53,667 bases of DNA from Tenericutes bacterium RIFOXYA12_FULL_35_10 (GTDB lineage: Bacteria > Bacillota_I > Bacilli_A > Acholeplasmatales > Acholeplasmataceae): NCBI GenBank assembly GCA_001830045.1, contig MIDA01000033.1:1-53667 (forward strand), given 5' to 3'. Position numbers and translations under genes: made by a program. Shown here in pieces: positions 21,693-39,212 of this stretch (its first letter is position 1; every line of letters starts with the position of its first letter). The notes under the pieces were generated by a model. It saw nothing but the letters and a program-made list of their open reading frames with translations, was not told the DNA's origin and did no database searches.

Positions 21693-21726
21693 AAAAAACG
21701 GGAACTCTGATCTAGAGTTCCTGTTT
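21691..21726. terminator. Bidirectional terminator between convergent response regulators
   Basis: GGAACTCT (21701-21708), loop GATCT, AGAGTTCC (21714-21721). Eight A residues flank it on the left (T-run for the minus strand) and TGTTTT on the right. Confidence 0.85.
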
Positions 21727-22416
21727 TGCGAAATCACCAAGTTTATACCCAAATCCCCACATCGTAATGACGATTTTAGGATTAGAAGGATCATCTTCAA
21801 TCTTTTCTCTTAAACGTCGAATATGGACGTTAATCACATTATCATTATAATAATATTCTTCACCCCAAACGGTGCGATACATTTGTTGTTTAGAGAATGT
21901 TTGATCGGGATGTGTGAGTAGTAATTTTAAAATTTCAAATTCTTTTAATGTTAAATCAATGACATGGTCATTTTTCTTCACTTCAAAACTACTTAAGTTA
22001 ATATCGAGGGTACCAATTGTAAACTTTTGTTTGGTTTCTTTTTCTTGAACCTTGTGAGCACGTCTTAAAACAGCTTTGACTCTAGCGATTAATTCAAGCA
22101 TTGAAAAAGGTTTAGCAAGGTAATCATCAGCACCAAGACCTAAGTTAATTGCTTTTTCAACATCGGTATCTTTGGTTGAAATAATGATCACGGGAACATC
22201 ACCTTTTGAGCGTATGTGCTTTAGCACATTTTCGCCACTTACTTTAGGTAACATCAGATCCAGTAAGACGGCATCATAGGGGATGATATCAAATTGTTTG
22301 ATGGCTTCTTCTCCATCGAAAACAGCTTTCACTTCGAACATTTCTTCTTTGAGTTTCGATTCTATACTACGGCTGATTAAAACATTATCTTCTACAATTA
22401 AGATTTTTTGACCCAT
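21712..22416 (-). CDS. Orphan OmpR/PhoB-type response regulator
   Basis: A 234-residue protein with receiver (EDN, D53 in LLDLMLP, IIISTKD, AKPFS) and winged-helix domains (LTLKEFEILKLLL; NVINVHIRRLREKIE) ending MWGFGYKLG. The ATG at 22416 follows AGGAGG with seven bases spacing; the longer frame reads through this site. No kinase gene is adjacent on its strand, so its partner is unknown. It converges on the KdpE-like gene, but the sequences differ clearly. It has its own extended -10 at 22491-22483. Confidence 0.9.
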   Translation of the reverse strand: MGQKILIVEDNVLISRSIESKLKEEMFEVKAVFDGEEAIKQFDIIPYDAVLLDLMLPKVSGENVLKHIRSKGDVPVIIISTKDTDVEKAINLGLGADDYLAKPFSMLELIARVKAVLRRAHKVQEKETKQKFTIGTLDINLSSFEVKKNDHVIDLTLKEFEILKLLLTHPDQTFSKQQMYRTVWGEEYYYNDNVINVHIRRLREKIEDDPSNPKIVITMWGFGYKLGDFAKQEL

Positions 22417-22482
22417 ACGATATCCTCCTACACTCAATAAACGGCTTTGTTTTCTTAAAAAATGACTTGTTTACTTATCATC

Positions 22483-22711: not shown

Positions 22712-23860
22712 TTAAGGTTGAAATGTAAAACTGAGTGTGTTTGATAATGGGGATACTCTACCACCAAAATCAACAGCTTCAACTTGGATGTTATAACTTT
22801 GATTTGCTGTTAAACCTTTGAATGTGTATTGATTGAGATTGGCATAACGATAAAATCTACCATCTAAATAAATCGCATAGTGTTCAACGCCGTAATCATC
22901 ATCTGATTTTGCCCAGAATATGGTGTTTTTGAGTTGTGCAACTTGAATATCACCAGGTTGTGTTGGTTCTTCAAGATCCACTTTCGCGTAATCTTGTTTG
23001 TAAACTCTGACATAATCAATTTCAAATGTTGTTGGGAAAATCGTGTTATCAATACCTTGAGCACCACCCCAATCGCCACCAATCGCTAAATTGATGATAA
23101 GAAAGAACATTTGATCAAAAGGGAATGCTTCATTGTAAGCAACTTCTTGATTAAGCTCAGCAACATAGTTAAATTCACCGAGTTTATCACCATCAACAAA
23201 CGTTAAAATTTTACCTGGAGTCCAAATCATTTCATAATCTTTGAATTCTGTTTCAACATTATCATAAATTCTAGAATATCCAATTTGTGTACCTAGTCTA
23301 TGATTAAACTTTTCCGTGTGTATGGTTGAATGGATACGATCTTTATCATAACCCACGTATTCCATAATATCGATTTCACCGCTATCTGGCCAACCGCCAT
23401 AAACACTACCTAAAGGCATCATCCAAATTGCTGGCCAAGTGCCACGCCCTGAAGGCATTTTAGCACGTGTGACGATTCTCACATATTGGAAATTACCTTT
23501 ATATCTGGTTGTTAAACGTGAAGATGTGTATGGCATACCGCCCATAGATTCTTGTTTAGCTGTAATCACCATTTTACCATCAACGATGGCTGTATTGTTA
23601 CGTGTGTAATACTGTCTTTCGTTGTTTCCACCACCGAAGGCACCTTCTTCAAAGTTCCATTTGGTTTCATCAACAGCATCACCTGAAAATTCATCAGCCC
23701 ATATACAAACCCATCCACCATCAAGTGTGGGATTATCACAATCTTCTACTGCTTCTAATGGAGCAAGTCCATTAGGCACACCTGTGGGTACTGTTTCCTC
23801 AGGTGTTTCGCATCCAACTAAAATGAATGCAAGAAATAATACAATGAGTAATTTTTTCAT
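22712..23860 (-). CDS. Exported GH16 endo-beta-1,3-glucanase (laminarinase-type) lipoprotein
   Basis: A 382-residue secreted enzyme tethered by Cys17 (lipobox LVGC). The GH16 domain (about 50-285) has the catalytic GEIDIMEYVG with E162 as nucleophile, D164 and E167 as acid/base, plus GRGTWPAIWMMP and LAIGGDWGG, the pattern of laminarinases. Residues about 300-382 form a fibronectin type III-like domain (HYAIYLDGRFYRY; YNIQVEAVDFGGR). It is the last gene of the glucan operon and has AAGGAGG before the ATG. It would cleave beta-1,3-glucan at the cell surface; beta-1,3-1,4-glucan is an alternative substrate. Confidence 0.92.
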   Translation of the reverse strand: MKKLLIVLFLAFILVGCETPEETVPTGVPNGLAPLEAVEDCDNPTLDGGWVCIWADEFSGDAVDETKWNFEEGAFGGGNNERQYYTRNNTAIVDGKMVITAKQESMGGMPYTSSRLTTRYKGNFQYVRIVTRAKMPSGRGTWPAIWMMPLGSVYGGWPDSGEIDIMEYVGYDKDRIHSTIHTEKFNHRLGTQIGYSRIYDNVETEFKDYEMIWTPGKILTFVDGDKLGEFNYVAELNQEVAYNEAFPFDQMFFLIINLAIGGDWGGAQGIDNTIFPTTFEIDYVRVYKQDYAKVDLEEPTQPGDIQVAQLKNTIFWAKSDDDYGVEHYAIYLDGRFYRYANLNQYTFKGLTANQSYNIQVEAVDFGGRVSPLSNTLSFTFQP

Positions 23861-23869
23861 GCCGCCTCC

Positions 23870-24805
23870 TTATTCACCGGTTATACCTGTGCGATCTATG
23901 CTTTCTGTAAAATATCTTTGCGCTATAAAGTATAACACAAGTAAAGGTAAAATGGTTAACATGTTACCCGCTAAAACAATAGCTTCATTGAGTTCAGCTC
24001 CTGGGGTCCCTGGAGGGAAGAGTTGAATGTATGAATTTCTAAATGCATTTAATTTGAGTGGTAAAGTAATTTGATCACCCACGAAAAGTGATGTGATAAA
24101 TGTTTCATTCCAATACCAAACGAAACTAAATAAGAACACGATGATAAATGATGGAATTGCAAGTGGAATCGCAATCCGTGTAAAAATCTTAAATTGTGAT
24201 GCACCATCGACTTCTGCAGATTCCATTAAGATACCTGGTATGGTCTTAAAGAATTGATAGAAAATCAAAATGTAAATCGCAGCGTTAATCCCTTGACCAA
24301 AAATGGCTGGTAGAATCATCGCATTTTGTGTACTCATTAAGCCTAAGTTGCGATAAATAAGCATATTGGCAACCATCGTGACTTGTGAAGGGAGAATAAA
24401 GGTTGCAAGCATTAACCCAAAGAATACTTTCTTTAAAGGGAAATTAAATTTAGCAAAACCATAACCAATCACTGCACTCGAGATAGTGACGGATAACGTC
24501 ACTTTTAAAACATAGGATGTTGTTCCAACAATGGTACCTGGTAAACCTAATACTTGTAGAGCTCTTTGATAGTTTTCCCACTGAAGTGTTGATGGAATCC
24601 ATTTGACACCTTCGTTAATTAAATCTTCAACGCTCTTAAAACTGTTGACAAGCATAAATAAGACCGGATAAAGATAAATGTAACTAAAACTAATCAGTAA
24701 TGTATAAATCACAATCTTGTAAAACAAACCGTCGACAAAGTTCATACCGAAGAGAACATGACGAAGTTTTGACTTAAGGTGTTTCACATCAATCTTTTTC
24801 ATCAT
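23870..24805 (-). CDS. Sugar ABC transporter permease, MalG-type (pair 2)
   Basis: A 311-residue inner-membrane subunit with six hydrophobic segments and the EAA loop ESAEVDGASQFKIFTRIAIP, which docks to the ATPase. It pairs with the MalF-type permease encoded directly upstream, overlapping by one base (TAATG), with GGAGGAG in the overlap. Together with the other pair in this locus it would import beta-glucan oligosaccharides. No ATPase gene lies nearby. Confidence 0.92.
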   Translation of the reverse strand: MMKKIDVKHLKSKLRHVLFGMNFVDGLFYKIVIYTLLISFSYIYLYPVLFMLVNSFKSVEDLINEGVKWIPSTLQWENYQRALQVLGLPGTIVGTTSYVLKVTLSVTISSAVIGYGFAKFNFPLKKVFFGLMLATFILPSQVTMVANMLIYRNLGLMSTQNAMILPAIFGQGINAAIYILIFYQFFKTIPGILMESAEVDGASQFKIFTRIAIPLAIPSFIIVFLFSFVWYWNETFITSLFVGDQITLPLKLNAFRNSYIQLFPPGTPGAELNEAIVLAGNMLTILPLLVLYFIAQRYFTESIDRTGITGE

Positions 24806-25902
24806 TATTTCTCCTCCTTACGAATCGAAAGTAAGCCCACAAAGATTAGCATAATTAAAACCATAAGGATAAAGTAGATCCAAGCCATCGCCGCAGCATA
24901 ACCATAACCAAAGCGGAATGAACTATCAGGTCCACCATTAATCATGTGTTGTCTTGCTAAATCGAGAATACCATTAGGTTCAACAAATAAAGACATCGAT
25001 ACAACAACATAAATCACAGCAACCGTAATGAGCGGTTTAATGGAAGGTAGTGTAATCTTCCAGAAACGATCCCATGGGGATGCACCATCAATGGATGCTG
25101 CTTCATAAATGGAAGAGTCAATCTTTTGAAGACCTGCCAAGAAGATTAAAATGGGAATCCCTGCATACCATAAGACGAGTAACATCGATGATAAAAGTGA
25201 TTCAATGGGATTTGCGATCCATGATCCTAAGTTACGTGTTAAAGATAATAACACTTCACTATCTTGGAGTGATGGAAGGCTTGTTGCTTCTTGGTTTGTT
25301 AATTCGTTAATGACTGGACCTGTTGCAATGACAACCGGTAAGAAGAAAATGGTTCTCCAAAAGCCTTTGAGTTTAATCGGATTATTGATTAAAACAGCAA
25401 TCAAAATCGAGAAAACAACAACGAGAGGTACACTTAATAACATCTTACCGACATACGTTGCATACATAGGTAATAATGTTTGACTTCTAAAAATGTTTAA
25501 GTAGTTAGTGATTCCAGCAGGTATGCTGATGACACCTTGTTGTGCATTATAATAAGCTTCTTGGAAACTTAAATAAAGCGAGTAAAACATTGGGTATAAT
25601 GTAAAGATTGCAAACCCAATCAACCATGGCAAGATAAAGATATAACCCCGTAGTGCTTCTCTTCTTTTTCTTGTCATTTTGATCTTGATAAAGCTAAATA
25701 AAATGAGTGTAAGTCCTTGGAATCGAACAATGAAGTTATGGGTTAACGCATAACCGATTTTCTTTAAAATAGGACGTACTCTTTTAACATAAAATACCTT
25801 AACTGTCTTGTTATAAAGTGCTGCAACCTTACCAAAAACCTTGATCAAACCTGCACTTACTTTGGTAAAAAATGCTTTTATGGATGCGATCATCTTTTTC
25901 AT
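24805..25902 (-). CDS. Sugar ABC transporter permease, MalF-type (pair 2), with N-terminal extension
   Basis: A 365-residue permease. The core (about residues 85-360) has six membrane segments and the EAA loop YEAASIDGASPWDRFWKITLP. An unusual N-terminal extension of about 80 residues, strongly basic and hydrophobic (AFFTKVSAGLIKVFGKVAAL; RFQGLTLILFSFIKIK), precedes the first normal segment and may form an extra membrane or amphipathic helix. It overlaps the DUF5696 gene by four bases and the MalG gene by one. Confidence 0.9.
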   Translation of the reverse strand: MKKMIASIKAFFTKVSAGLIKVFGKVAALYNKTVKVFYVKRVRPILKKIGYALTHNFIVRFQGLTLILFSFIKIKMTRKRREALRGYIFILPWLIGFAIFTLYPMFYSLYLSFQEAYYNAQQGVISIPAGITNYLNIFRSQTLLPMYATYVGKMLLSVPLVVVFSILIAVLINNPIKLKGFWRTIFFLPVVIATGPVINELTNQEATSLPSLQDSEVLLSLTRNLGSWIANPIESLLSSMLLVLWYAGIPILIFLAGLQKIDSSIYEAASIDGASPWDRFWKITLPSIKPLITVAVIYVVVSMSLFVEPNGILDLARQHMINGGPDSSFRFGYGYAAAMAWIYFILMVLIMLIFVGLLSIRKEEK

Positions 25903-28292
25903 ACGTTCACCACCTTATAACTACGTGCTGATATCACGCCATCTGTGGTAAACCGTGTTGCATATTGATAATTAATATAAATCTTAACACCATTCGTATA
26001 CGTGACTAAAACTAAACCAGTTTCTAAAACTTCTCTGGATTCAATTTGTTCTCCAATGACATATTTTAATGCGTCATTGACGAAATGATAGTTTTCAATC
26101 ACTTCATCTTGATAATTAGATAACGTCGTTGTAAATAGGTCTGCAGCAGGAGTATAGCGCATTTCATATGTGTCTTTTTCTGTTAATACATAAGCAGGAT
26201 TAATCCCAAAATCAACCATCGTTAATAATCTGTCTTCAGCAAGTGCATTAAAGTTCATAAATGGTGTGTAATAGGAAATACTTCCCTTTAAAACAATCGG
26301 TAAAAGTGGAACTAAATCTGTGTAGTAGTCATATTGCGCATTCGTAATAAACATGTTTAAATAGCCATCAGTTTCAGAAAGCATATAACTATTGGGTTGT
26401 GCTAAGATTAAAGAATCATAAAGTGATGCAATCTCTTGATAGGTTTCAATCGAATGCATTCTTTCAAAGTTATCATTATCGTAATAACTAAATAAAATCG
26501 AACCCAATGACATCATAGCAGGACCTGAAACGTTCATGTCTTGATAGAAAGATTGGTCTTGTTTTGCATAAACCAAACTTCTCTCAGGATAAAGCAGATA
26601 TGCTTCAGTGACTTGACCATTTAAGTTTCTATAACGAAGGACCATCTTTAATTTAGATAACGATCTTGCAACATCTCTTGTATAAGATACACGTGATGCA
26701 TCTTCACTTGAATTGATATAATCATTTTCTAAGTAAACACGGTTTCCATCATCCATAATTTGGTTGATGGTATCTTTTAAATCATTTTGATCATAAACAC
26801 GTGTGCGATACGGTGTACGGTTAATAAATCCATCTCTACTCCAACCTAGCAGTGTCACGACTTGATTGGTTAAACCATTTTCTTTAAACATATCATAAGC
26901 ATTTTGAACATCTTTAGCAGATGTCATATTGACTCTGGTAGTTCCAATGAATGAGGGTTCACGGTCACTCATGATATATGCAAGTTGAATGGGAATATCT
27001 GTTGAAGCTTGTTCACGTTCTGTTAAAACGCCTTCTTCAATCAAATAGTCTCTATAATCTTTTGCAATACCAACATAAGATGCATCTTCACCATCTAAAA
27101 TGGTATAACGTGCACGGTAATTCGTTTGTGTGACATCATCATCAATGACATCCGGACCTTGTCCTTCACGGTTGATGACATTTTTATAAAGTTGTCTCAC
27201 TTGATAACGGATGCTTGAACGGTGATATCGTGAAGATGATCCCCAGAAGGATGCGAATAATTGTGAATTTTCTGCACCTTCGATGATATTCACATAATAG
27301 GCATTACCACCTGGACGATGCACAATCCCTGAAATAGGTAGTGTCATCTGAGGTAGAGTTTGCTGTGCATAACCATAATCAGATCCAAAATAACGCGCTT
27401 GGAAATAGGTGTTATAGTATTTGTTTGTTCTAACTAACGCACCAACACCATCAGGAATAACAATATAACCTGGAATTTTATCTTCACGTGCAGCTCCAAA
27501 ATAAGGAAACACTTGAATACCAATTAAACGATAAATATCGCCTTCTTCAACAATCGATTCTGTTGGGATAAAGACTTCAATACCAGCATCTTGCAAACTG
27601 ATCGTCACATCAAAATTCGTTTCAATGGAACCAAGTTCGACAGCAACTGTAAATGAGTTAGCTGTTTTTTCTTTAATGGTTGCCTTCGCTTTTCTATACG
27701 TATACGTTCCTGGTGTAAGATAATAAGGTCTTAAACGATCGGTCTCCGTTTCAGTGATTGCACCATTATTTTGATATTCAACTTCTGCTAAGGAATAAAG
27801 TGAATCGGTATTGATACCTGCTGGTTTAATGTTACCTGTTGTGACATATTCAACCCATAAACCTGAATTCATCAAGTTTCTTGCATTTGTAACGTCTTCT
27901 CTAGTTCCTGAAATCCCTTGGAATTCAGGACGTGAAGACCAGAAATAACCGTTTTCTTCGTTTTTAATCATCATAGAGAATGAATCAACTTCAAAATAAA
28001 CGGTAAACTTACCTGGTACTGAAAACATTTCTTCAAACCCTAAGGTTTCAAGTTCTGCTTCTGAGTAACTTAAGGTATACTTTGTTTCATAATCTTCTAA
28101 AACTTGTTCACTGACATCATCGGTTTGTGTATATCTTGATGATTCAAGTAAGAGTTGATTGATGTATGGATAGTTATCAATCACATCTAAAGACATATCA
28201 AATGCAGGATCTTTTTGATTGGCATTTGCAACCATAAACGTAAAGGATAAGAATAAGACGATGATGAGTACATATTTAAATAATTTAGCCAC
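25899..28292 (-). CDS. DUF5696-type exported protein
   Basis: A 797-residue protein with a signal peptide (hydrophobic residues about 5-22, MVANA cleavage-like end) and a long beta-rich extracellular region. The order and segments (GYFWSSRPEFQG; GYIVIPDGVGALVRTNK; GYAQQTLPQMTLPISGIVHR; YVGIAKDYRDYLIEEG) match DUF5696 proteins that I know from Paenibacillus loci next to Yip1 proteins and sugar permeases. The second half looks TIM-barrel-like, so a glycosidase-like fold is possible, but no catalytic pair is identified. The start is GTG at 28292 with GGGAG ten bases upstream. It overlaps both neighbours. Confidence 0.75.
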   Translation of the reverse strand: MAKLFKYVLIIVLFLSFTFMVANANQKDPAFDMSLDVIDNYPYINQLLLESSRYTQTDDVSEQVLEDYETKYTLSYSEAELETLGFEEMFSVPGKFTVYFEVDSFSMMIKNEENGYFWSSRPEFQGISGTREDVTNARNLMNSGLWVEYVTTGNIKPAGINTDSLYSLAEVEYQNNGAITETETDRLRPYYLTPGTYTYRKAKATIKEKTANSFTVAVELGSIETNFDVTISLQDAGIEVFIPTESIVEEGDIYRLIGIQVFPYFGAAREDKIPGYIVIPDGVGALVRTNKYYNTYFQARYFGSDYGYAQQTLPQMTLPISGIVHRPGGNAYYVNIIEGAENSQLFASFWGSSSRYHRSSIRYQVRQLYKNVINREGQGPDVIDDDVTQTNYRARYTILDGEDASYVGIAKDYRDYLIEEGVLTEREQASTDIPIQLAYIMSDREPSFIGTTRVNMTSAKDVQNAYDMFKENGLTNQVVTLLGWSRDGFINRTPYRTRVYDQNDLKDTINQIMDDGNRVYLENDYINSSEDASRVSYTRDVARSLSKLKMVLRYRNLNGQVTEAYLLYPERSLVYAKQDQSFYQDMNVSGPAMMSLGSILFSYYDNDNFERMHSIETYQEIASLYDSLILAQPNSYMLSETDGYLNMFITNAQYDYYTDLVPLLPIVLKGSISYYTPFMNFNALAEDRLLTMVDFGINPAYVLTEKDTYEMRYTPAADLFTTTLSNYQDEVIENYHFVNDALKYVIGEQIESREVLETGLVLVTYTNGVKIYINYQYATRFTTDGVISARSYKVVNV

Positions 28293-30318
28293 GACTGATC
28301 AACTCCCTTACAATATCTGAGAACAAGACGAACACTTCATTAAGAAGTAAGTAAATGATGAAGAGTACTGCCATAATCATGAGACCGGTAAACACGGTAA
28401 TGAATAAATTCATAATGGTTGGTTTCATGTCATAGAAGTGTACTTCTTTAACCATGATAATCATGTATAAAAGCGTTAAACCAACAACGATATAAAGCAC
28501 AGTTTGATAGATGAAGCCTTCATTGTAAGTTAACACATTGGAAATAATGGTTAGAATAGGTAATCCAATAATCATCGGTAACAACATGTAAGCTGTTCCT
28601 TGATAAACATCAGAAAGTTTACCTTCCCCATCACGAATGCTACATACTAAGTAGTTAGCAACAACAAATAAGAAGAATGGAACAAAGACAGTAACCATTT
28701 CTTGGAACATGTTGATTTCTGATGGAATGTTGTTGTTAAATAAGAAACTTGATTCAAAAATCCAAATAATATAGACGGTAAAGAACATCATTAAATAGAT
28801 CGTTGCCGATAAATTAGATCCCTTACCTTCACGTTTAATACCATAAAAACCATCTGCTGGATGTTTAAAAATATAGAATGGGAAAACAAGTTCACGGTAT
28901 AACTTATACTTATTGAGCTTTTCCTTCAACTTCGTTAAAGGTCTAAGTAAAATAGGCATAAACTTGAAAATGTTATTGGCAATCGCTAAGACGACCAAAG
29001 CTAGGGCAACAATAACAATACCTTGACCTGAGGATAAGAGCGCTTGGTTTCTAACTTCCCAATATGCATCTGAATAACCATCTTGATCACGCGCAACTTC
29101 ATAATATTTCATTGCCGTTTCATAATCCATATCGGCATAATATGCATCACCAAGACCTTGGTTTGCTAAATCGAAGAGTGCATTCATCTTTAACACTTCT
29201 TGCCATGGACCTAAAGATTCAGAATATTTACCATCTTGATAAAGATCAATCGCGTAATGTACTAAGTTTGCAAACTCTGTTGGAATAAAGACTTGAAGTG
29301 ATGATGATGTTTTATCAATCGCGTAAATGTTACTCTTAGAGTCTACTGCAACACCTGAAGGTAGATCAAATAACCCTTTTTGTCCAAAGGTATCTAGACC
29401 AGAGAAGATAAAGAGTACGGATCCATCAGGACCATATTCGACTAAATAACCATCCGATGTGATTGCGAAAATCGTGTTATAAGGACCCACAAATAAATCT
29501 TCAGTGGTATTAAATCCCCAAACCGATTGGTTATAGACGAAGTTAGCGATGTTTAATTTTAAATAACCAAATTCATCTTTGGTTGTTGTTAGAATTAAAC
29601 CATCATTATCAACACCAATGTTATACACAGGTTTAGGAATCATCTTAAACCACTCACGGCGTTGTTGTTCATCAAAGAGCATGTATTTTAAGACATTATC
29701 CCATGTGTTAGGAATTTGGTTACCACCAAAGAATCCGAAGAATGAACCATTGTTTTCAAATTCTGCAAGCCCGTTAATGTTACCTGCTAGAAGCACGTAA
29801 ACATTATTACCACGGTCAGTAATGACTTTCGTTGGTTCAAAAGGATCTGTTTCTTTAAAGAATGGTGAATTTACTGGTTTTTCATAGATCGCACCCAGTT
29901 GATAATCACCTAAGGTTTCATCATAGATAAATTGATATGCTTTCTTATTGCCAAAATCTGCGACATAAAGTGCACCATCAATACCAACATGAACACCTGT
30001 CGGTTGTTCTAAGATACCTTCACCAATAATGGATACTTGATCTTGTTGCAAACTATATTTGATCACGCGTTTATTGCCTGAATCTGCAATATACACGTTA
30101 TCTTCTTTATCAATGGTGATATCTTCTGGGTTAAGTAATGTTTCTCCACCCAAATTGTAGCTCATGGATAAAGGAAGGTAGGCGTCCTGTGTAGGGACAA
30201 TTCTTCCTTGAGAACTTGAATACGTAAATGTTGCGTAAGGGACACCGTTGGCGCTGACGGTAAGGGATGTAACCGAGAACACCATGATTAAAATGAGTAC
30301 AATGATTAATTTTTTCAT
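28285..30318 (-). CDS. NHL beta-propeller / TPR / Yip1-domain membrane protein
   Basis: A 677-residue multi-domain protein: signal peptide (1-23); NHL-like repeats (about 60-345, e.g. ITIDKEDNVYIADSGNKRV, GVAVDSKSNIYAIDK); a TPR-like helical pair (about 352-420, YAIDLYQDGKYSESLGPWQE); a membrane segment (about 432-450); then a C-terminal Yip1-like domain with four or five membrane segments (480-677). The propeller should face outside. Known relatives sit beside sugar ABC genes and DUF5696. A role as surface glycan sensor or scaffold is inferred. It overlaps its neighbours by one and eight bases. Confidence 0.82.
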   Translation of the reverse strand: MKKLIIVLILIMVFSVTSLTVSANGVPYATFTYSSSQGRIVPTQDAYLPLSMSYNLGGETLLNPEDITIDKEDNVYIADSGNKRVIKYSLQQDQVSIIGEGILEQPTGVHVGIDGALYVADFGNKKAYQFIYDETLGDYQLGAIYEKPVNSPFFKETDPFEPTKVITDRGNNVYVLLAGNINGLAEFENNGSFFGFFGGNQIPNTWDNVLKYMLFDEQQRREWFKMIPKPVYNIGVDNDGLILTTTKDEFGYLKLNIANFVYNQSVWGFNTTEDLFVGPYNTIFAITSDGYLVEYGPDGSVLFIFSGLDTFGQKGLFDLPSGVAVDSKSNIYAIDKTSSSLQVFIPTEFANLVHYAIDLYQDGKYSESLGPWQEVLKMNALFDLANQGLGDAYYADMDYETAMKYYEVARDQDGYSDAYWEVRNQALLSSGQGIVIVALALVVLAIANNIFKFMPILLRPLTKLKEKLNKYKLYRELVFPFYIFKHPADGFYGIKREGKGSNLSATIYLMMFFTVYIIWIFESSFLFNNNIPSEINMFQEMVTVFVPFFLFVVANYLVCSIRDGEGKLSDVYQGTAYMLLPMIIGLPILTIISNVLTYNEGFIYQTVLYIVVGLTLLYMIIMVKEVHFYDMKPTIMNLFITVFTGLMIMAVLFIIYLLLNEVFVLFSDIVRELISRG

Positions 30319-31199
30319 TATTTGATCCCCGAATGAGCCATGGTATTCATGACTTTACTTTGTAAGACAATAAACAGTACTAAATTAGGTATAAACATCA
30401 GTAACCCTGCTGCAGCAGCCATCCCTTGACCTGCAACGGTATTACCTTGAGCTGATGTTAAGCTCATCATATAAAATGCGAGTGTACGTTTACTTTCATC
30501 ATTGATGTATAAAACAGAAGTTGTCGTATCATTCCAAATCGCCTGAAAGGCTAGAATACCTACGGTTGCGATTGCTGGAGCGATGATGGGCATGATAATT
30601 TTAAAGAATATCTCCATCTCCGATGCACCATCAATCTTCGCAGATTCGATTAATTCATTGGGTGTTTGATCGATAAACTGTTTAATCAAAAACATCGCAA
30701 CTGGCATGACAATGACTGGTAATATATGTGCCCAGTATGTATCAATTAAACCTGATTGTGCGATAATTAAATATCTTGGAATTTGAACTGCAATCGGTAC
30801 GAACATTAAAGCTAAGGTATTTAATTCAAATAAGAACTTTTTACCTTTAAATTTCATCTTAGATAATGCATAAGCAGAAAATCCAGTGAATAAAATCGCT
30901 AACCCAACCCCTAAAATCGTTACAAACAGTGAGTTCACTAAATATCTAGAAAACGGAACTCCGGATGCACTCACAATTCTTGATAACTCGGTAAAGTTAT
31001 CAAATGTTGGTCTTCTGACGAAGAACTTAGGCGGATACGCGAACAGTTCACTTTGAGGTTTAAACGCATGGTTAATAATAAAGATAATCGGCAATAACAT
31101 CAGCGTTGAAAAAGGTATTAAAAACAGGAAGAATGGTAGCTGACTTCTATGAAAACGTGTGGGATTGATTTTTGTCCCTTGAAATGAGTTACTTTTCAT
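30318..31199 (-). CDS. Sugar ABC transporter permease, MalG-type (pair 1)
   Basis: A 293-residue permease with six membrane segments and the EAA loop ESAKIDGASEMEIFFKIIMP. It follows the MalF-type gene by four bases and overlaps the NHL-Yip1 gene by one base (TAATG). It probably uses one of the two solute-binding proteins encoded just upstream. It is less than half identical by eye to the other MalG-type permease in the locus, so the pairs are not a recent duplication. Confidence 0.92.
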   Translation of the reverse strand: MKSNSFQGTKINPTRFHRSQLPFFLFLIPFSTLMLLPIIFIINHAFKPQSELFAYPPKFFVRRPTFDNFTELSRIVSASGVPFSRYLVNSLFVTILGVGLAILFTGFSAYALSKMKFKGKKFLFELNTLALMFVPIAVQIPRYLIIAQSGLIDTYWAHILPVIVMPVAMFLIKQFIDQTPNELIESAKIDGASEMEIFFKIIMPIIAPAIATVGILAFQAIWNDTTTSVLYINDESKRTLAFYMMSLTSAQGNTVAGQGMAAAAGLLMFIPNLVLFIVLQSKVMNTMAHSGIK

Positions 31200-31203
31200 T
31201 GTC

Positions 31204-32088
31204 TTAGTCCCTTTCTCCTAAAATTTTCCAAGTCACTTTAGAGATGAAATACACCATGATTAAAAGAACAACGCTAATCGCCGCTGCATAGCCCATCATG
31301 TATCTGATAAATCCAAAGTCTTCGATATGGTTAACGATTAACTGACCTGCATATTGTGGTGTCGGGTTAGATCCAGAAAGAGCGACCCCGATACCTCCTG
31401 CTTGGAAGGTTGTCACTACTGCCATCACGGCTCCAAAAAGCATTTGAGGTTTCATGGATGGTATGGTGATGTAAAAAATTTCTTGTGCACGGTTTCTAAT
31501 ACCATCGACATATGCCGCTTCATAAAGCGTCTGATCAATGTTTAAGACACCCGCTAACATCGCTAAGAACCCAACACCCATACTACTCCATAGGGAGACA
31601 ACAATCATAATGGTCATTAAATACTGTGGTGATTGCAAGAACTGAATCGGTTCTAAGATAACACCCCAGTTCATCAATAAACTGTTTAAATAACCTTGTG
31701 AGTCATCTGAGAAAATAATTCGCCACATGGACGCCATCGCAACCCCCATCGTTAAAGATGGAGAGTACAGGATAATGGCTAACACTGTACGCGCTTTAGC
31801 AGGGATTTGCGCAAGCATCCATGCGAGAAAAAACGATAGTAAATATCCAACAGGACCAACGATTAACGCAAACTTCAATGTATTCGATAAAACGAATTGC
31901 ATGAAGACTGTATCCATCGTGATCAGTTCGATATAGTTTGTAATCCCTGTAAATGTAGGTGCTTGAATCGCATTAAAGTATGTAAATGATAAGAACACAG
32001 CAGCTAAAACAGGAATAACGACAAAGACAAAGAATAAAGTCCAGTAAGGTACGATAAACCATGCAGGACGATTCATTTTATGCAGCAT
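31204..32088 (-). CDS. Sugar ABC transporter permease, MalF-type (pair 1)
   Basis: A 294-residue permease with six membrane segments and the EAA loop [22 protein letters not shown], in which the usual GAS is replaced by GIR. It overlaps the large solute-binding fusion by 11 bases, so the two are translationally linked and probably work together. The length is typical, without the N-terminal extension of the second MalF-type protein. Confidence 0.92.
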
Positions 32089-35204: not shown

Positions 35205-36656
35205 CTATTTACCTAAATTTTCAAGTTGATCTTGAACGATTTCGTTAGCTTTCGCTTCCCATTCGGCAGCATAAGTTGCAACTGCAGTTGGACCAGCAAT
35301 AACTAAACTATCCCAGTTATATGGATTTTCAGGATCTGATACCCATGCCCAGAATTCTTTATAACCTGGTAACCATTTGTCAAGGTCAGGTTTAGAGAAT
35401 TCAATACGGTTTAAAGTGTAATCAAGACCTTCAATACCATCAACGAGTGCATAAACTCTATCCCAAACGCCTTCATAATCAGCAACAGGGAATCTGTTTA
35501 AATACTGTGGCATTTCGCCAGCAGCGACTGCAGCAGCTTTATCTGCTTCAAGTAGATCAAGACGTGCTAACCAACCTTCTCTACCAAAAGTCATCCATTT
35601 AGCAAGCATAAATGCTTCTTCAGGATATGCAGTTTGATAGGATACACATTGATAATCAAGAATCGTTGGTGGGAATAAACCAGCGGATCCGCTAGGATAT
35701 GGCCAGAAGCCTAAATTGATATTGTTTGTTTCTTTAGCATAATTGATAATACCAAATTGCCAAGAACCTTCGATATCCATTGCAGCATAACCTTCTTGAA
35801 TCATGTAAGTTCTTAATGCTGTGTTTGCTTCAGCATTATAATCTTCTTCTGTGAAACGAGTTGTTGTACCATCAGTTAATTGATGAATCGCAACTTTGGT
35901 TTGCATTGCTGAAATCCAGCCAGCAGAAGTGTAATGGAAAGCTTCTCCATCCCATGTGTCATATTGTACGTTAGCATCATTCATCATTGGCCAAACTTGT
36001 TGGAAGTCAGGTGAACCATACCATGTATCAAAACCGACAACGAGATTTTCTGGATTTGCTAAGTCAAAGTTTTTAATTGCTTTTGCAATTTCAACAAACT
36101 CAGCATGTGTCCAGTCTTTCACTGGGTAACCATCGTTATCAATACGATATTTACCTTCAACAGTTGAAAGGTTCGCTTCTTCAAAAATATCTAAGTTAAT
36201 CATAATACCCTTTAAGAATTGGAATGAAGGAACTGCAAAACGTTTACCATTATATACACCAGTCATGGCGATATTGTCATAAACTAAAGCTGCATCTTCA
36301 TCTAGATCCCACATGGAAGCAACATCCATGGTTAAACCAGCGTTAATTACAGTAGGAACGTTATCGGTAGCAAACACGTCTGGTAATAAACCAGCTTGTG
36401 CTGCAGTCACTAAGTTACCTGTAAATTCTGCACCAGAACCTGCAATGTTCTTACTAAGTGTCACACGAATGTGTGGGTACTTTTCCATAAATTTGTCGAT
36501 CATACGTTGATTGAAATCAGCATCGCCCCAATCAGCGTACGTTAATTCGATGGTTTGAAGTGTTTGTTCGCCTTCAGTTGGAACGGGATCTTTACCGCAT
36601 GCAACAAGTGCTAACACAAACACCAGCATCATCACTAAAGTCATTAATTTTTTCAT
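35205..36656 (-). CDS. ABC sugar-binding lipoprotein
   Basis: A 483-residue family 1 extracellular solute-binding protein. The lipobox LVAC anchors Cys20. The mature part begins with TIELTYADWGDADFNQRMID, and contains FMEKYPHIRVTL, LPDVFATDN, GVYNGKRFAVPS, MDIEGSWQFG and SYQTAYPEEAFMLAKWM, the family pattern. The ligand is probably a beta-glucan oligosaccharide, from context only. A strong hairpin follows its stop codon, and the gene lies 12 bases below the CBM lipoprotein. Confidence 0.92.
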   Translation of the reverse strand: MKKLMTLVMMLVFVLALVACGKDPVPTEGEQTLQTIELTYADWGDADFNQRMIDKFMEKYPHIRVTLSKNIAGSGAEFTGNLVTAAQAGLLPDVFATDNVPTVINAGLTMDVASMWDLDEDAALVYDNIAMTGVYNGKRFAVPSFQFLKGIMINLDIFEEANLSTVEGKYRIDNDGYPVKDWTHAEFVEIAKAIKNFDLANPENLVVGFDTWYGSPDFQQVWPMMNDANVQYDTWDGEAFHYTSAGWISAMQTKVAIHQLTDGTTTRFTEEDYNAEANTALRTYMIQEGYAAMDIEGSWQFGIINYAKETNNINLGFWPYPSGSAGLFPPTILDYQCVSYQTAYPEEAFMLAKWMTFGREGWLARLDLLEADKAAAVAAGEMPQYLNRFPVADYEGVWDRVYALVDGIEGLDYTLNRIEFSKPDLDKWLPGYKEFWAWVSDPENPYNWDSLVIAGPTAVATYAAEWEAKANEIVQDQLENLGK

Positions 36657-36668
36657 TGTAATCTCCTC

Positions 36669-39212
36669 TTAGTTAAAGTTTTGGTAGATTAAAATGTTGT
36701 GTAATGTAAAGATGCCAACTGTAGAAACAAGTGGATCACCAAGTGTACCAAAGTCTAATTCGACTTTAACATTAGTTAATGCAGTTGCAACAACAAAGTT
36801 TACAGTAACTGTTACCATTTCATCTGCTGTAGCAACATTGAAATCATACTTAGAACCTTCAAGAATTGATGCAAATCCTGAATCTGGTAATACGATGTTA
36901 AGTCTGAAGTCTCTTGCTACGCTTGAAGTCATGTGTAAAACAAATGTGTAGTTACCTGGAGCAAGTGCATCAATTATGTAGTAATAATGTGGTTCATAAG
37001 CTTGACCACCAACTGCTGATACATTAAAGACTGCACCGTTTGCAGAATATGCCATTGTGTTCGCAGCATTTCCACCATCGTAGAATCCATGACCACCAAT
37101 AACTGTTTCAGCATTACCATTGACTAATAATTCTGGCATATCTGCGCCATCTTTCTTCATGGATAAGTTATCAAACTTAATCCATTCAGCGCCAGTTTCA
37201 AATGGTGTAAATTGTGTACCAAATTCAAACTTGAATTCAAATGGTAAAGTCATATCTGTGCCTGTTGTAAATTGTAATGTGTAAGTAGCTTTTGTACCTG
37301 TAATTGCAACAACACCAGTTGTTACTAAGTTATTCCAACCAGCTGCTTCACCTTGTGTGAAGAATGGATTTAATGAAATATCTTGAGATGCATATGCATC
37401 AAATACGAATGTATAAGCTGTGTTAGCTTCTAAAGTAAGTTTTGTACCATAGATTAATTGGAGCATGTAACCAGCAGAACCGTTTGCATATTTGGTTAAG
37501 TTGTAAACAAATTCGCCATCAACAACATCTAAAGTAGCAACTGATCCATCCCAATCATTGCTGAATGCTTGCCATCCTGTAGCTAAGAAATCGCCATTTG
37601 CAATGTGTGTTGGAAGAACTGCTTCTTGGATCTTCACATCAGAGAATGTAACTAAACCATCAGCAAAACCTGTTTGTGAACCAAGTTCAAAGACTAGGTT
37701 AACTGCATGATCTTCTTTTGTAACTGTAAATAAGTATTCATAAACTGCATCTTCAGTTGTGATTGCAATACCATCTTTACGACCGTATTCAACCCATGGG
37801 TTGCCATAACCGATAGCTGCATTAATGCTTCTTGCTACTTCGGCTTTAACTGTGAATTGGAGACGGTATGTCTTACCCATTTCTAAGTTAATATAACCTG
37901 TTTGATGTAATTGAATTGCCCAAGCCGCATCACCACCACCGGTAATGTCAACTGCAAATGTACCAGCTGTTGTGTCAAGTGCTGTTGTAACAACAGGAGC
38001 TGTACCCCAGTCTTGGTGCCATACTGCCCATTCTGGAGCATCAACAGTTAAGTCAGCTTCAAAACTACCATTTGCAACTAAGTTTGTTGCATTAAATTGC
38101 ATAGAAACAACTTCAATTGTAAATTCAGCAGTAGCTTCATTTCCTGCAGCATCTTCAACAGTTAAGTAAACGGTATAAGTACCTTCAACAGAAGTATCAA
38201 TCGTAGTAACTGTTTCTTCTGCTGAATTCTTGATGACTGCAACGATTGCTGATGTTAAATCACCATCAATAATATCGTTTGCTGTAATACCAGCTAAAAC
38301 ATCAATTGTACCATCAACTAAGATTGACTTGTTAGCTACGCCAGCAAATGTTGGTGCAGTTTCATCTGGACCGACTTCAACTTCAACGATTTCGATGTTA
38401 TCAAACCATAAGGTTGCGTTAACTGCAACGCCGTTAAGTGCACCTAGTTCGAATAATAAACCACCACGTTGGTTGTCGCGTGTATGAATAAATTCAAATT
38501 CATAGTTCGCCCAAGCTGTTGTAATTGTACGGTGTACGACATTACCTGGCTTAAAGTCTTCAAACCATGGAGCAGATGTTAAGAGTTCACCAACTTGAAG
38601 GTTGATTGTCTTTTCAACTGATGATTTTGCATCAAATGAAACTTTATAAGCTTTACCTTCTTCAAAAGGTACATTCATTTGACCAAATCTTGGTGTATAG
38701 ATGTTAGAACCAGCTACAACTTCTGCTTTTAATGCGCCATCTTCAACTGATAATGTCATTGAAGAACCATCCGCATTATAAACAACTGAAGGATCATCCC
38801 AACCAGCTGTACCTTGAGCGAAGTCTTTGTTAACTAACATTTCGCCTTCAACAACTTCAGGAGCTTTTACTGTGATATAACGCCAACGTTGTGCAGTCAA
38901 AGTATCAACTTTAACTTCGTAGCGAATACCGTGTACGCCCACTTTAGTGGTATCAAGCATATGCGTTTCTGAAACGGTAGCGGTTGTGTTATACGTCATG
39001 ACTGAAGTATAGTCAACGCTATCATTTCCTGTTGCAGTAACGCCAGTTAAAACGTTAAACTCAGTACCAAAATCGAGTGTAACATCATCTGCGCCTGCAA
39101 AAGTAATCGCTGTGAGCTCAGGCTCTGGTGTTGGAATTGGTTCTTCTTTACATGATGCTAAGAAGATTCCAAACACTGCGATTAGTGCTAAAACTAACCA
39201 TTTCTTTCTCAT
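36669..39212 (-). CDS. Non-catalytic surface lipoprotein with four CBM4/9-like domains
   Basis: An 847-residue lipoprotein (lipobox LASC, Cys21). In order: an Ig-like strand region (about 33-116); a CenC-type carbohydrate-binding domain (about 123-278, MLVNKDFAQGTAGWDD); a DUF5011/HYR-type domain (about 284-369, VDGTIDVLAGITANDIIDGD and VEDAAGNEATAEF); then three more CBM4/9-like domains beginning LVANGSFEAD (about 378), HIANGDFLATGW (about 537) and LLVNGNAETVIGG (about 700). No glycosidase domain is present. It is likely a surface glycan-binding protein presenting glucan to the GH16 and ABC system. AAGGAGG precedes the ATG. Confidence 0.87.
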   Translation of the reverse strand: MRKKWLVLALIAVFGIFLASCKEEPIPTPEPELTAITFAGADDVTLDFGTEFNVLTGVTATGNDSVDYTSVMTYNTTATVSETHMLDTTKVGVHGIRYEVKVDTLTAQRWRYITVKAPEVVEGEMLVNKDFAQGTAGWDDPSVVYNADGSSMTLSVEDGALKAEVVAGSNIYTPRFGQMNVPFEEGKAYKVSFDAKSSVEKTINLQVGELLTSAPWFEDFKPGNVVHRTITTAWANYEFEFIHTRDNQRGGLLFELGALNGVAVNATLWFDNIEIVEVEVGPDETAPTFAGVANKSILVDGTIDVLAGITANDIIDGDLTSAIVAVIKNSAEETVTTIDTSVEGTYTVYLTVEDAAGNEATAEFTIEVVSMQFNATNLVANGSFEADLTVDAPEWAVWHQDWGTAPVVTTALDTTAGTFAVDITGGGDAAWAIQLHQTGYINLEMGKTYRLQFTVKAEVARSINAAIGYGNPWVEYGRKDGIAITTEDAVYEYLFTVTKEDHAVNLVFELGSQTGFADGLVTFSDVKIQEAVLPTHIANGDFLATGWQAFSNDWDGSVATLDVVDGEFVYNLTKYANGSAGYMLQLIYGTKLTLEANTAYTFVFDAYASQDISLNPFFTQGEAAGWNNLVTTGVVAITGTKATYTLQFTTGTDMTLPFEFKFEFGTQFTPFETGAEWIKFDNLSMKKDGADMPELLVNGNAETVIGGHGFYDGGNAANTMAYSANGAVFNVSAVGGQAYEPHYYYIIDALAPGNYTFVLHMTSSVARDFRLNIVLPDSGFASILEGSKYDFNVATADEMVTVTVNFVVATALTNVKVELDFGTLGDPLVSTVGIFTLHNILIYQNFN

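Follow-up and report, generated by a model that had tools for sequence, protein, structure and literature searches.

Gene content of the locus

The window analyzed here is a stretch of 53,667 nucleotides (nt) from Tenericutes bacterium RIFOXYA12_FULL_35_10 (contig MIDA01000033.1; source genome of 2.05 Mb in 106 contigs), and its nearest named matches come from Acholeplasmataceae and 'Tenericutes' metagenome-assembled genomes. Two of its genes concern us, one encoding a protein of the DUF5696 family and the other a protein with NHL, TPR-like, and Yip1 regions (NHL-TPR-Yip1). A first-pass annotation had placed both exactly between two permease pairs of sugar ATP-binding cassette (ABC) transporters and had viewed them as a separate surface module. 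This placement is exact to the base by open reading frame (ORF) coordinates and Pfam matches, but the two genes are not a separate module, because both belong to the permeases' own cassette. They form the center of a single gene cassette with the order (SBP-A)-SBP-B-F1-G1-NHL-Yip1-DUF5696-F2-G2, in which SBP denotes a solute-binding protein and F and G denote MalF-type and MalG-type permeases. In the window, this cassette and the enzyme gene next to it comprise the following features:

25899-28292, minus strand: DUF5696; 797 amino acids (aa), GTG start, N-terminal signal/anchor helix and a predicted ectodomain of the glycoside hydrolase (GH) 129 fold, its catalytic residues apparently lost
28285-30318, minus strand: NHL-TPR-Yip1; 677 aa, ATG start, signal peptide, propeller, TPR-like helices, transmembrane (TM) helix, Yip1 domain
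35205-36656, minus strand: SBP-A; lipoprotein solute-binding protein, lipobox LVAC, 483 aa
32078-35137, minus strand: SBP-B; membrane-anchored solute-binding protein, 1019 aa, with an N part of ~580 aa containing a CBM35-like stretch and a C-terminal SBP domain
31204-32088, minus strand: F1; MalF-type permease of a discrete, highly conserved family
30318-31199, minus strand: G1; MalG-type permease (BPD_transp_1, E = 1.2e-12)
24805-25902, minus strand: F2; second MalF-type permease (BPD_transp_1, E = 5.2e-12)
23870-24805, minus strand: G2; second MalG-type permease (BPD_transp_1, E = 8.8e-16)
22712-23860, minus strand: GH16 lipoprotein of the laminarinase type (Glyco_hydro_16, E = 3.1e-19); a locus-specific enzyme outside the conserved core

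The ORFs of DUF5696 and NHL-TPR-Yip1 overlap by 8 nt and are directly flanked by F1/G1 on one side and by F2/G2 on the other, while residues 4-22 of each protein form a hydrophobic export segment. SBP-B matches SBP_bac_1 (E = 7.7e-18) and has a TM helix at residues 27-45; the profile of its N part gives weak matches to CBM-bearing chains, with E = 3.6e-6 for the CITase 5x7g, and CBM35 chains are likewise matched weakly. SBP-A has no Pfam match, and its identity as an SBP is based upon its sequence and upon homologues located upstream of SBP-B. The nearest solved structure to F1 is AlgM1 of the alginate importer (E = 1.4e-13). No ATPase gene is present within the cassette; a stand-alone ATPase of the UgpC/MsmX type, above its model cut-off, is encoded in the source genome away from any permease. 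The EAA loops are conserved in all four permease families (123-126 sequences each, 125 for F1), with an invariant W in that of F2, and thus all four permeases likely engage an ATPase.

Conservation of the cassette

An alignment scan of named genomes for DUF5696 yielded 80 loci from Acholeplasmataceae, Izimaplasma, Bacillus, Paenibacillus, Fictibacillus, Clostridia, Lachnospiraceae, Chloroflexi/Anaerolineae, and Thermosipho, to which loci from relatives were added. Sufficient flank, defined as at least four genes upstream and at least two downstream of DUF5696, was available for 121 loci, which were picked for resemblance to the window protein or for relatedness and are therefore not a random sample of DUF5696 genes. 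The order SBP-B-F1-G1-NHL-Yip1-DUF5696-F2-G2 was evident from ORF calls in 113 of these loci, and a six-frame search recovered all of the parts in the same order from the remaining eight, which are mostly from GC-rich genomes. Thus, the cassette order is kept in 121/121 loci, an arrangement far beyond chance. Apart from one remnant locus described below, the apparent exceptions could be traced to artefacts of ORF calling, to contig edges, or to candidates that had not been scored.

Neighboring core genes overlap or are no more than 30 nt apart in nearly every locus. Of the 63 loci tested, 52 have SBP-A immediately before SBP-B, and in some loci it is found downstream of G2. NHL and Yip1 are fused as a single protein in 96/121 loci; a clade of ~850-aa DUF5696 proteins has them as separate neighboring genes, of which the first encodes a protein that ends in a TM helix and the second a protein with five TM segments. 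A few loci (L005, L118, and L168) have a fusion of F2 and G2. The source genome itself carries at least five of the cassettes (contigs C33, C56, C11, C19, and C27). The DUF5696 match on contig C56 (L001/L004) was first read with one in-frame stop, which probably lies at the natural end of the gene, since ORF calling gives an open 852-aa gene there. The SBP-A of another source-genome cassette (L180:4860-6842) is a 660-aa protein with an extra N-terminal stretch that is Ig-like (immunoglobulin-like) by eye.

Co-occurrence was examined in a set of 195 genomes of the phylum. Of these, 31 had strong DUF5696 matches, 30 had NHL-Yip1, and 30 had both (Fisher p = 1.7e-34), although p-values of this kind ignore shared ancestry and the weight lies in the near absence of exceptions. 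Immediately upstream of 79 of the 83 DUF5696 genes, and on the same strand, is an NHL/Yip1 gene. F1 constitutes a discrete permease family with 84 members scoring 417-513 bits, the next permeases reaching ≤169 bits, and all 84 are confined to the same 30 genomes as NHL-Yip1. A DUF5696 match was found within 7 kb of 77 F1 genes; upon re-reading, the other seven F1 loci either are at a contig edge or contain DUF5696 as a full gene or an edge-cut fragment. The first-pass annotation had expected the pair to co-occur with sugar ABC genes, and by both the counts and the synteny this association is obligate; the same statistics contradict the idea that the pair occurs mainly in genomes lacking sugar ABC loci. 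The single genome with DUF5696 but without F1 (G097) has a remnant locus (L155/L181, contig C3 at ~139 kb), where the C-terminal ~220 residues of DUF5696 continue in frame into the beginning of a phosphorylase-like gene, with F2, G2, and GH16 located after it. The rest of this cassette is missing, due to either a deletion or a misassembly.

The components differ widely in their conservation. Across ~20 distant loci, the median identities were 64% for F1, 58% for G1, 45% for G2, 43% for F2, 37% for SBP-B, 36% for NHL-Yip1, 30% for DUF5696, and 25% for SBP-A. The combination of a constant F1/G1 core with variable SBP-A and DUF5696 proteins would agree with the two variable proteins facing the substrate.

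The enzymes encoded beside the cassettes vary as well, and we deduced the substrates of the cassettes from the families of these adjacent enzymes. In the window, the GH16 lipoprotein is located downstream of G2, a position held by other enzymes in other loci, and two GH149/GH94-like phosphorylases are encoded further upstream of SBP-A. Among all of the loci, cassette-side enzymes include GH16 with GH149-like proteins (β-1,3-glucan), SOGP/GH94 with PF10091 and GH3 (β-1,2-glucan), NamZ with GH3, a BadF-type kinase, and an N-acetylmuramic acid 6-phosphate (MurNAc-6-P) etherase (peptidoglycan sugars), GH43 with the arabinose isomerase AraA (arabinan), and further GH123 and GH85. The first-pass annotation had also raised the possibility of DUF5696 being a hidden glycosidase active on laminarin. 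Its occurrence beside SOGP/GH94, NamZ-GH3-MurQ, GH43/AraA, GH123, and GH85 genes led us to reject a laminarin-specific hydrolase, as neighboring enzymes of such differing linkage indicate that DUF5696 is no laminarin enzyme. One core serving many linkages argues for a role in transport rather than for a single hydrolytic specificity.

In the ~850-aa clade (L116, L119, L123, L130, L141, L153, L172, and L173), a recurring gene set is found downstream of the cassette, and its composition in L116 (NamZ, GH3, the BadF-type kinase, and MurNAc-6-P etherase) points to the use of peptidoglycan sugars. The window cassette is adjoined on its enzyme side by a LacI-type regulator, and a response-regulator gene is located downstream (21712-22437). 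Directly upstream of SBP-A, at 36669-39212, is a gene for an 847-aa surface protein with CBM_4_9 and Ig-like regions; large Ig/CBM proteins resembling it come after other cassettes (L124 and L171).

Predicted folds and the GH129 active site

DUF5696 matches its Pfam family (PF18952) over residues 209-792 with 413.8 bits (gathering cut-off 25.6; E = 1.6e-123). An AlphaFold model built with 64 homologues reached a mean pLDDT (predicted local distance difference test) of 91.4 and a pTM (predicted template modeling score) of 0.90, and comprises an N-terminal helix, a β domain (87-400), a TIM barrel (~406-745), and a C-terminal β domain. The barrel-like second half suspected in the first-pass annotation is thus borne out by the model, as one part of a predicted whole-chain GH129 fold. 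The best solved-structure matches are all GH129 proteins, namely NagBb (5wzq; Z-score 28.1, 563 residues aligned, root-mean-square deviation (rmsd) 3.9) and ZgGH129 (5opq; Z 28.0, 572 aligned, rmsd 3.5), with the next structural families near Z 19. Profile comparison agrees with this fold, as the DUF5696 profile matches 5wzn (NagBb) at E = 1.6e-4 and hhalign of DUF5696 against GH129 homologues gives E = 2.2e-12 across 458 columns. We also considered DUF5696 as a relative of α-amylases. Sub-threshold PF18952 matches in related genomes are indeed GH13 proteins, but they cover only ~60-120 barrel positions, and this relationship is also outscored by GH129 (Z 28 vs 19).

Homologues of NagBb itself were encountered in three other genomes (L156:6233-8056, L157:6389-8215, and L158:5668-7479). 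These proteins are 49-62% identical to one another, and that of L156 matches 5wzn at E = 4.4e-147. All three score above the Pfam DUF5696 cut-off and below the cut-off of Pfam's GH129 model; thus, if PF18952 is used on its own, genuine enzymes can be annotated wrongly as DUF5696. Conversely, the Pfam GH129 model (PF11308) matched 0/195 genomes even though three carry GH129 homologues found by PF18952, and its silence is therefore no evidence of absence. GH129 relatives were also sought in viral contigs and plasmids, and none were found there.

The Asp of the YLDVF motif in NagBb-like proteins, which we take to be the nucleophile, is D435 of the NagBb chain and D416 in L156, and the Glu of the SEE motif, taken as the acid/base, is E459/E460 in L156; the mutants ZgGH129 D486N and GH101 D764N named in PDB titles were taken as equivalent nucleophile mutants. 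In all four alignment settings, the nucleophile position corresponds to Met594 of the window DUF5696, while the SEE motif lands in a gap. Among 124 family members, column 594 contains D in 44, E in 19, A in 14, S in 11, N in 8, and other residues in the remainder, so that D or E is present in 51% of the family, and the residue changes between close relatives. Columns 628-640 contain D plus E in at most 27% of members. No D/E of the barrel is invariant as one residue, and G, P, Y, N, T, and L account for most of its best conserved positions. Judging from these alignments, the canonical GH129 catalytic pair is gone from DUF5696, and the laminarin-hydrolyzing glycosidase suggested earlier is not supported. 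Some of the conserved barrel residues, located after strands 2, 5, and 7, would line the barrel mouth in the model, which would fit a retained binding cleft.

The domain assignments of NHL-TPR-Yip1 made in the first-pass annotation were upheld by Pfam for NHL (E = 8.4e-14, above cut-off) and Yip1 (PF04893; E = 4.9e-9, 36.7 bits vs a cut-off of 28.6). For the TPR region, TPR_16 remains below its cut-off (E = 1.1e-3, 19.8 bits vs 32.7), and the AlphaFold model (pLDDT 86.8) contains four TPR-like helices at 348-409. The model further contains a six-bladed NHL propeller (44-346), a TM helix (433-451), and a Yip1 membrane domain (482-651), several TM segments being present past residue 430. The propeller resembles the NHL domain of Thin (6d69; Z 30.2, 264 aligned, rmsd 2.8).

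Proposed role and comparison with known systems

We consider it probable that both DUF5696 and NHL-TPR-Yip1 belong, as obligate subunits without catalytic activity, to an ABC glycan importer with dual permeases. Such an importer would take up oligo- or polysaccharide fragments, with F1/G1 and F2/G2 as its two distinct permease pairs, and would be powered by an MsmX/UgpC-type ATPase encoded elsewhere. Outside the cell, SBP-A and SBP-B, the propeller, and the dead GH129 domain would receive the glycan, with the DUF5696 ectodomain at the outer face of the membrane holding or guiding it instead of cutting it. NHL-TPR-Yip1 would serve as a membrane scaffold, its Yip1 helices tying the permeases together, as YknW might for YknXYZ, and its propeller and TPR-like helices contacting SBP-B and DUF5696 on the outside. 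Adaptation to each substrate would come from SBP-A and partly from DUF5696, with F1/G1 as the constant core.

Several observations weigh against this proposal. Two importers merely sharing an operon would show identical synteny, and the ~30% identity of DUF5696 between loci is low for a pure scaffold. In addition, about a third of DUF5696 proteins keep an Asp at the nucleophile position, and acidic residues are found near the barrel strand ends at positions 443, 524, 642, and 706 in 69-80% of the family.

It seems unlikely that DUF5696 and NHL-Yip1 are instead YknW-like assembly or quality-control factors of the permeases that have no contact with glycan. The Yip1-family protein YknW modulates the assembly of the ABC exporter YknXYZ (PMC4887032), which is likewise a precedent for a scaffold role of NHL-Yip1, and both the tight spacing of the two genes between the permease pairs and the lost catalytic residues of DUF5696 would suit such factors. 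However, an entire GH129 chain (~570 residues aligned) that is variable and yet kept across phyla is more readily explained by a protein that faces the substrate than by a chaperone.

Less probable still is the idea that DUF5696 works as a glycosidase, using a rebuilt active site to trim the glycan on its way in. The GH129 fold, the D/E at column 594 in half of the family, and the acidic residues at 443, 524, 642, and 706 all favor this reading, and because the latter are so common, some members may be active. Yet none of the barrel carboxylates is kept as a single invariant residue, positions 594 and 706 of the window protein are Met and Lys, none of the alignment settings yields a counterpart of the acid/base segment, and the same protein is found in loci with unrelated linkages. 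We give equally little credence to a sensor or gate, in which the propeller and DUF5696 would detect glycan and signal via Yip1 to open one permease pair or control expression, because, despite the extracellular propeller and polytopic domain in one chain and the response-regulator gene downstream, domain scans of both proteins found no signaling domain and the regulator beside the window cassette on its enzyme side is of the LacI type.

The non-catalytic importer subunits that we favor could be taken one step further, albeit tentatively and with more doubt than confidence, to a single ABC supercomplex with four different TM subunits in two heterodimers, a Yip1 scaffold, and a roof in which a propeller and an anchored SBP accompany a dead glycosidase. 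Bacteria that have no typical outer membrane would thereby capture glycans at their surface somewhat in the manner of a Sus system, but with an ABC importer as its basis. To our knowledge, no ABC importer with four different membrane subunits has been described previously.

In agreement with the first-pass annotation, no function for the pair was found in the literature searched. DUF5696/PF18952 is named in no paper found, although the search reached few subscription papers and an earlier description is possible; likewise, the literature found on Yip1 and sugar ABC transport contained nothing on this cassette. A related published description concerns β-glucan clusters of Acholeplasma laidlawii and Paenibacillus, which contain GH16, phosphorylases, an SBP, and two permease sets, mostly without an ATPase (PMC6484121, Kuhaudomlarp et al. 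2019). According to the available portions of that paper, A. laidlawii has two neighboring permease clusters, one of them without an SBP, for which SBP sharing was proposed and the missing ATPase genes were remarked upon. From this description the layout looks like the two halves of the present cassette; the same portions treat them as two adjacent clusters and make no mention of proteins between the permease pairs. Permease pairs that resemble two incomplete sugar transporters belong to one conserved cassette, found with enzymes for chemically unrelated glycans in several phyla, and DUF5696, a family without known function, gains a predicted fold, an apparent loss of activity, and an obligate set of partners.

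With the GH129 glycosidases (the α-N-acetylgalactosaminidase NagBb, 5wzn, and the 3,6-anhydro-D-galactosidase ZgGH129, 5opq), DUF5696 shares the predicted whole-chain fold and a sequence relationship, but its catalytic Asp is replaced or unconserved, its acid/base Glu segment is unmatched, and it is exported and encoded in a transporter operon. In YknWXYZ, too, an ABC transporter has its own Yip1-family membrane protein, but this transporter is an exporter with a membrane fusion protein and has neither a propeller nor a GH129-like protein. Carbohydrate uptake transporter 1 (CUT1)-type importers, such as those for maltose (MalFGK2) and alginate (AlgM1M2SS with AlgQ), have one F/G pair and two nucleotide-binding domains per complex. 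The cassette likewise encodes SBPs and MalF/MalG-type permeases with EAA loops, but in contrast to the CUT1-type importers it has no ATPase gene and combines two non-identical permease pairs and two SBPs with DUF5696 and NHL-Yip1, and if its products do form one complex, it would represent an ABC importer type in which all four membrane subunits differ.

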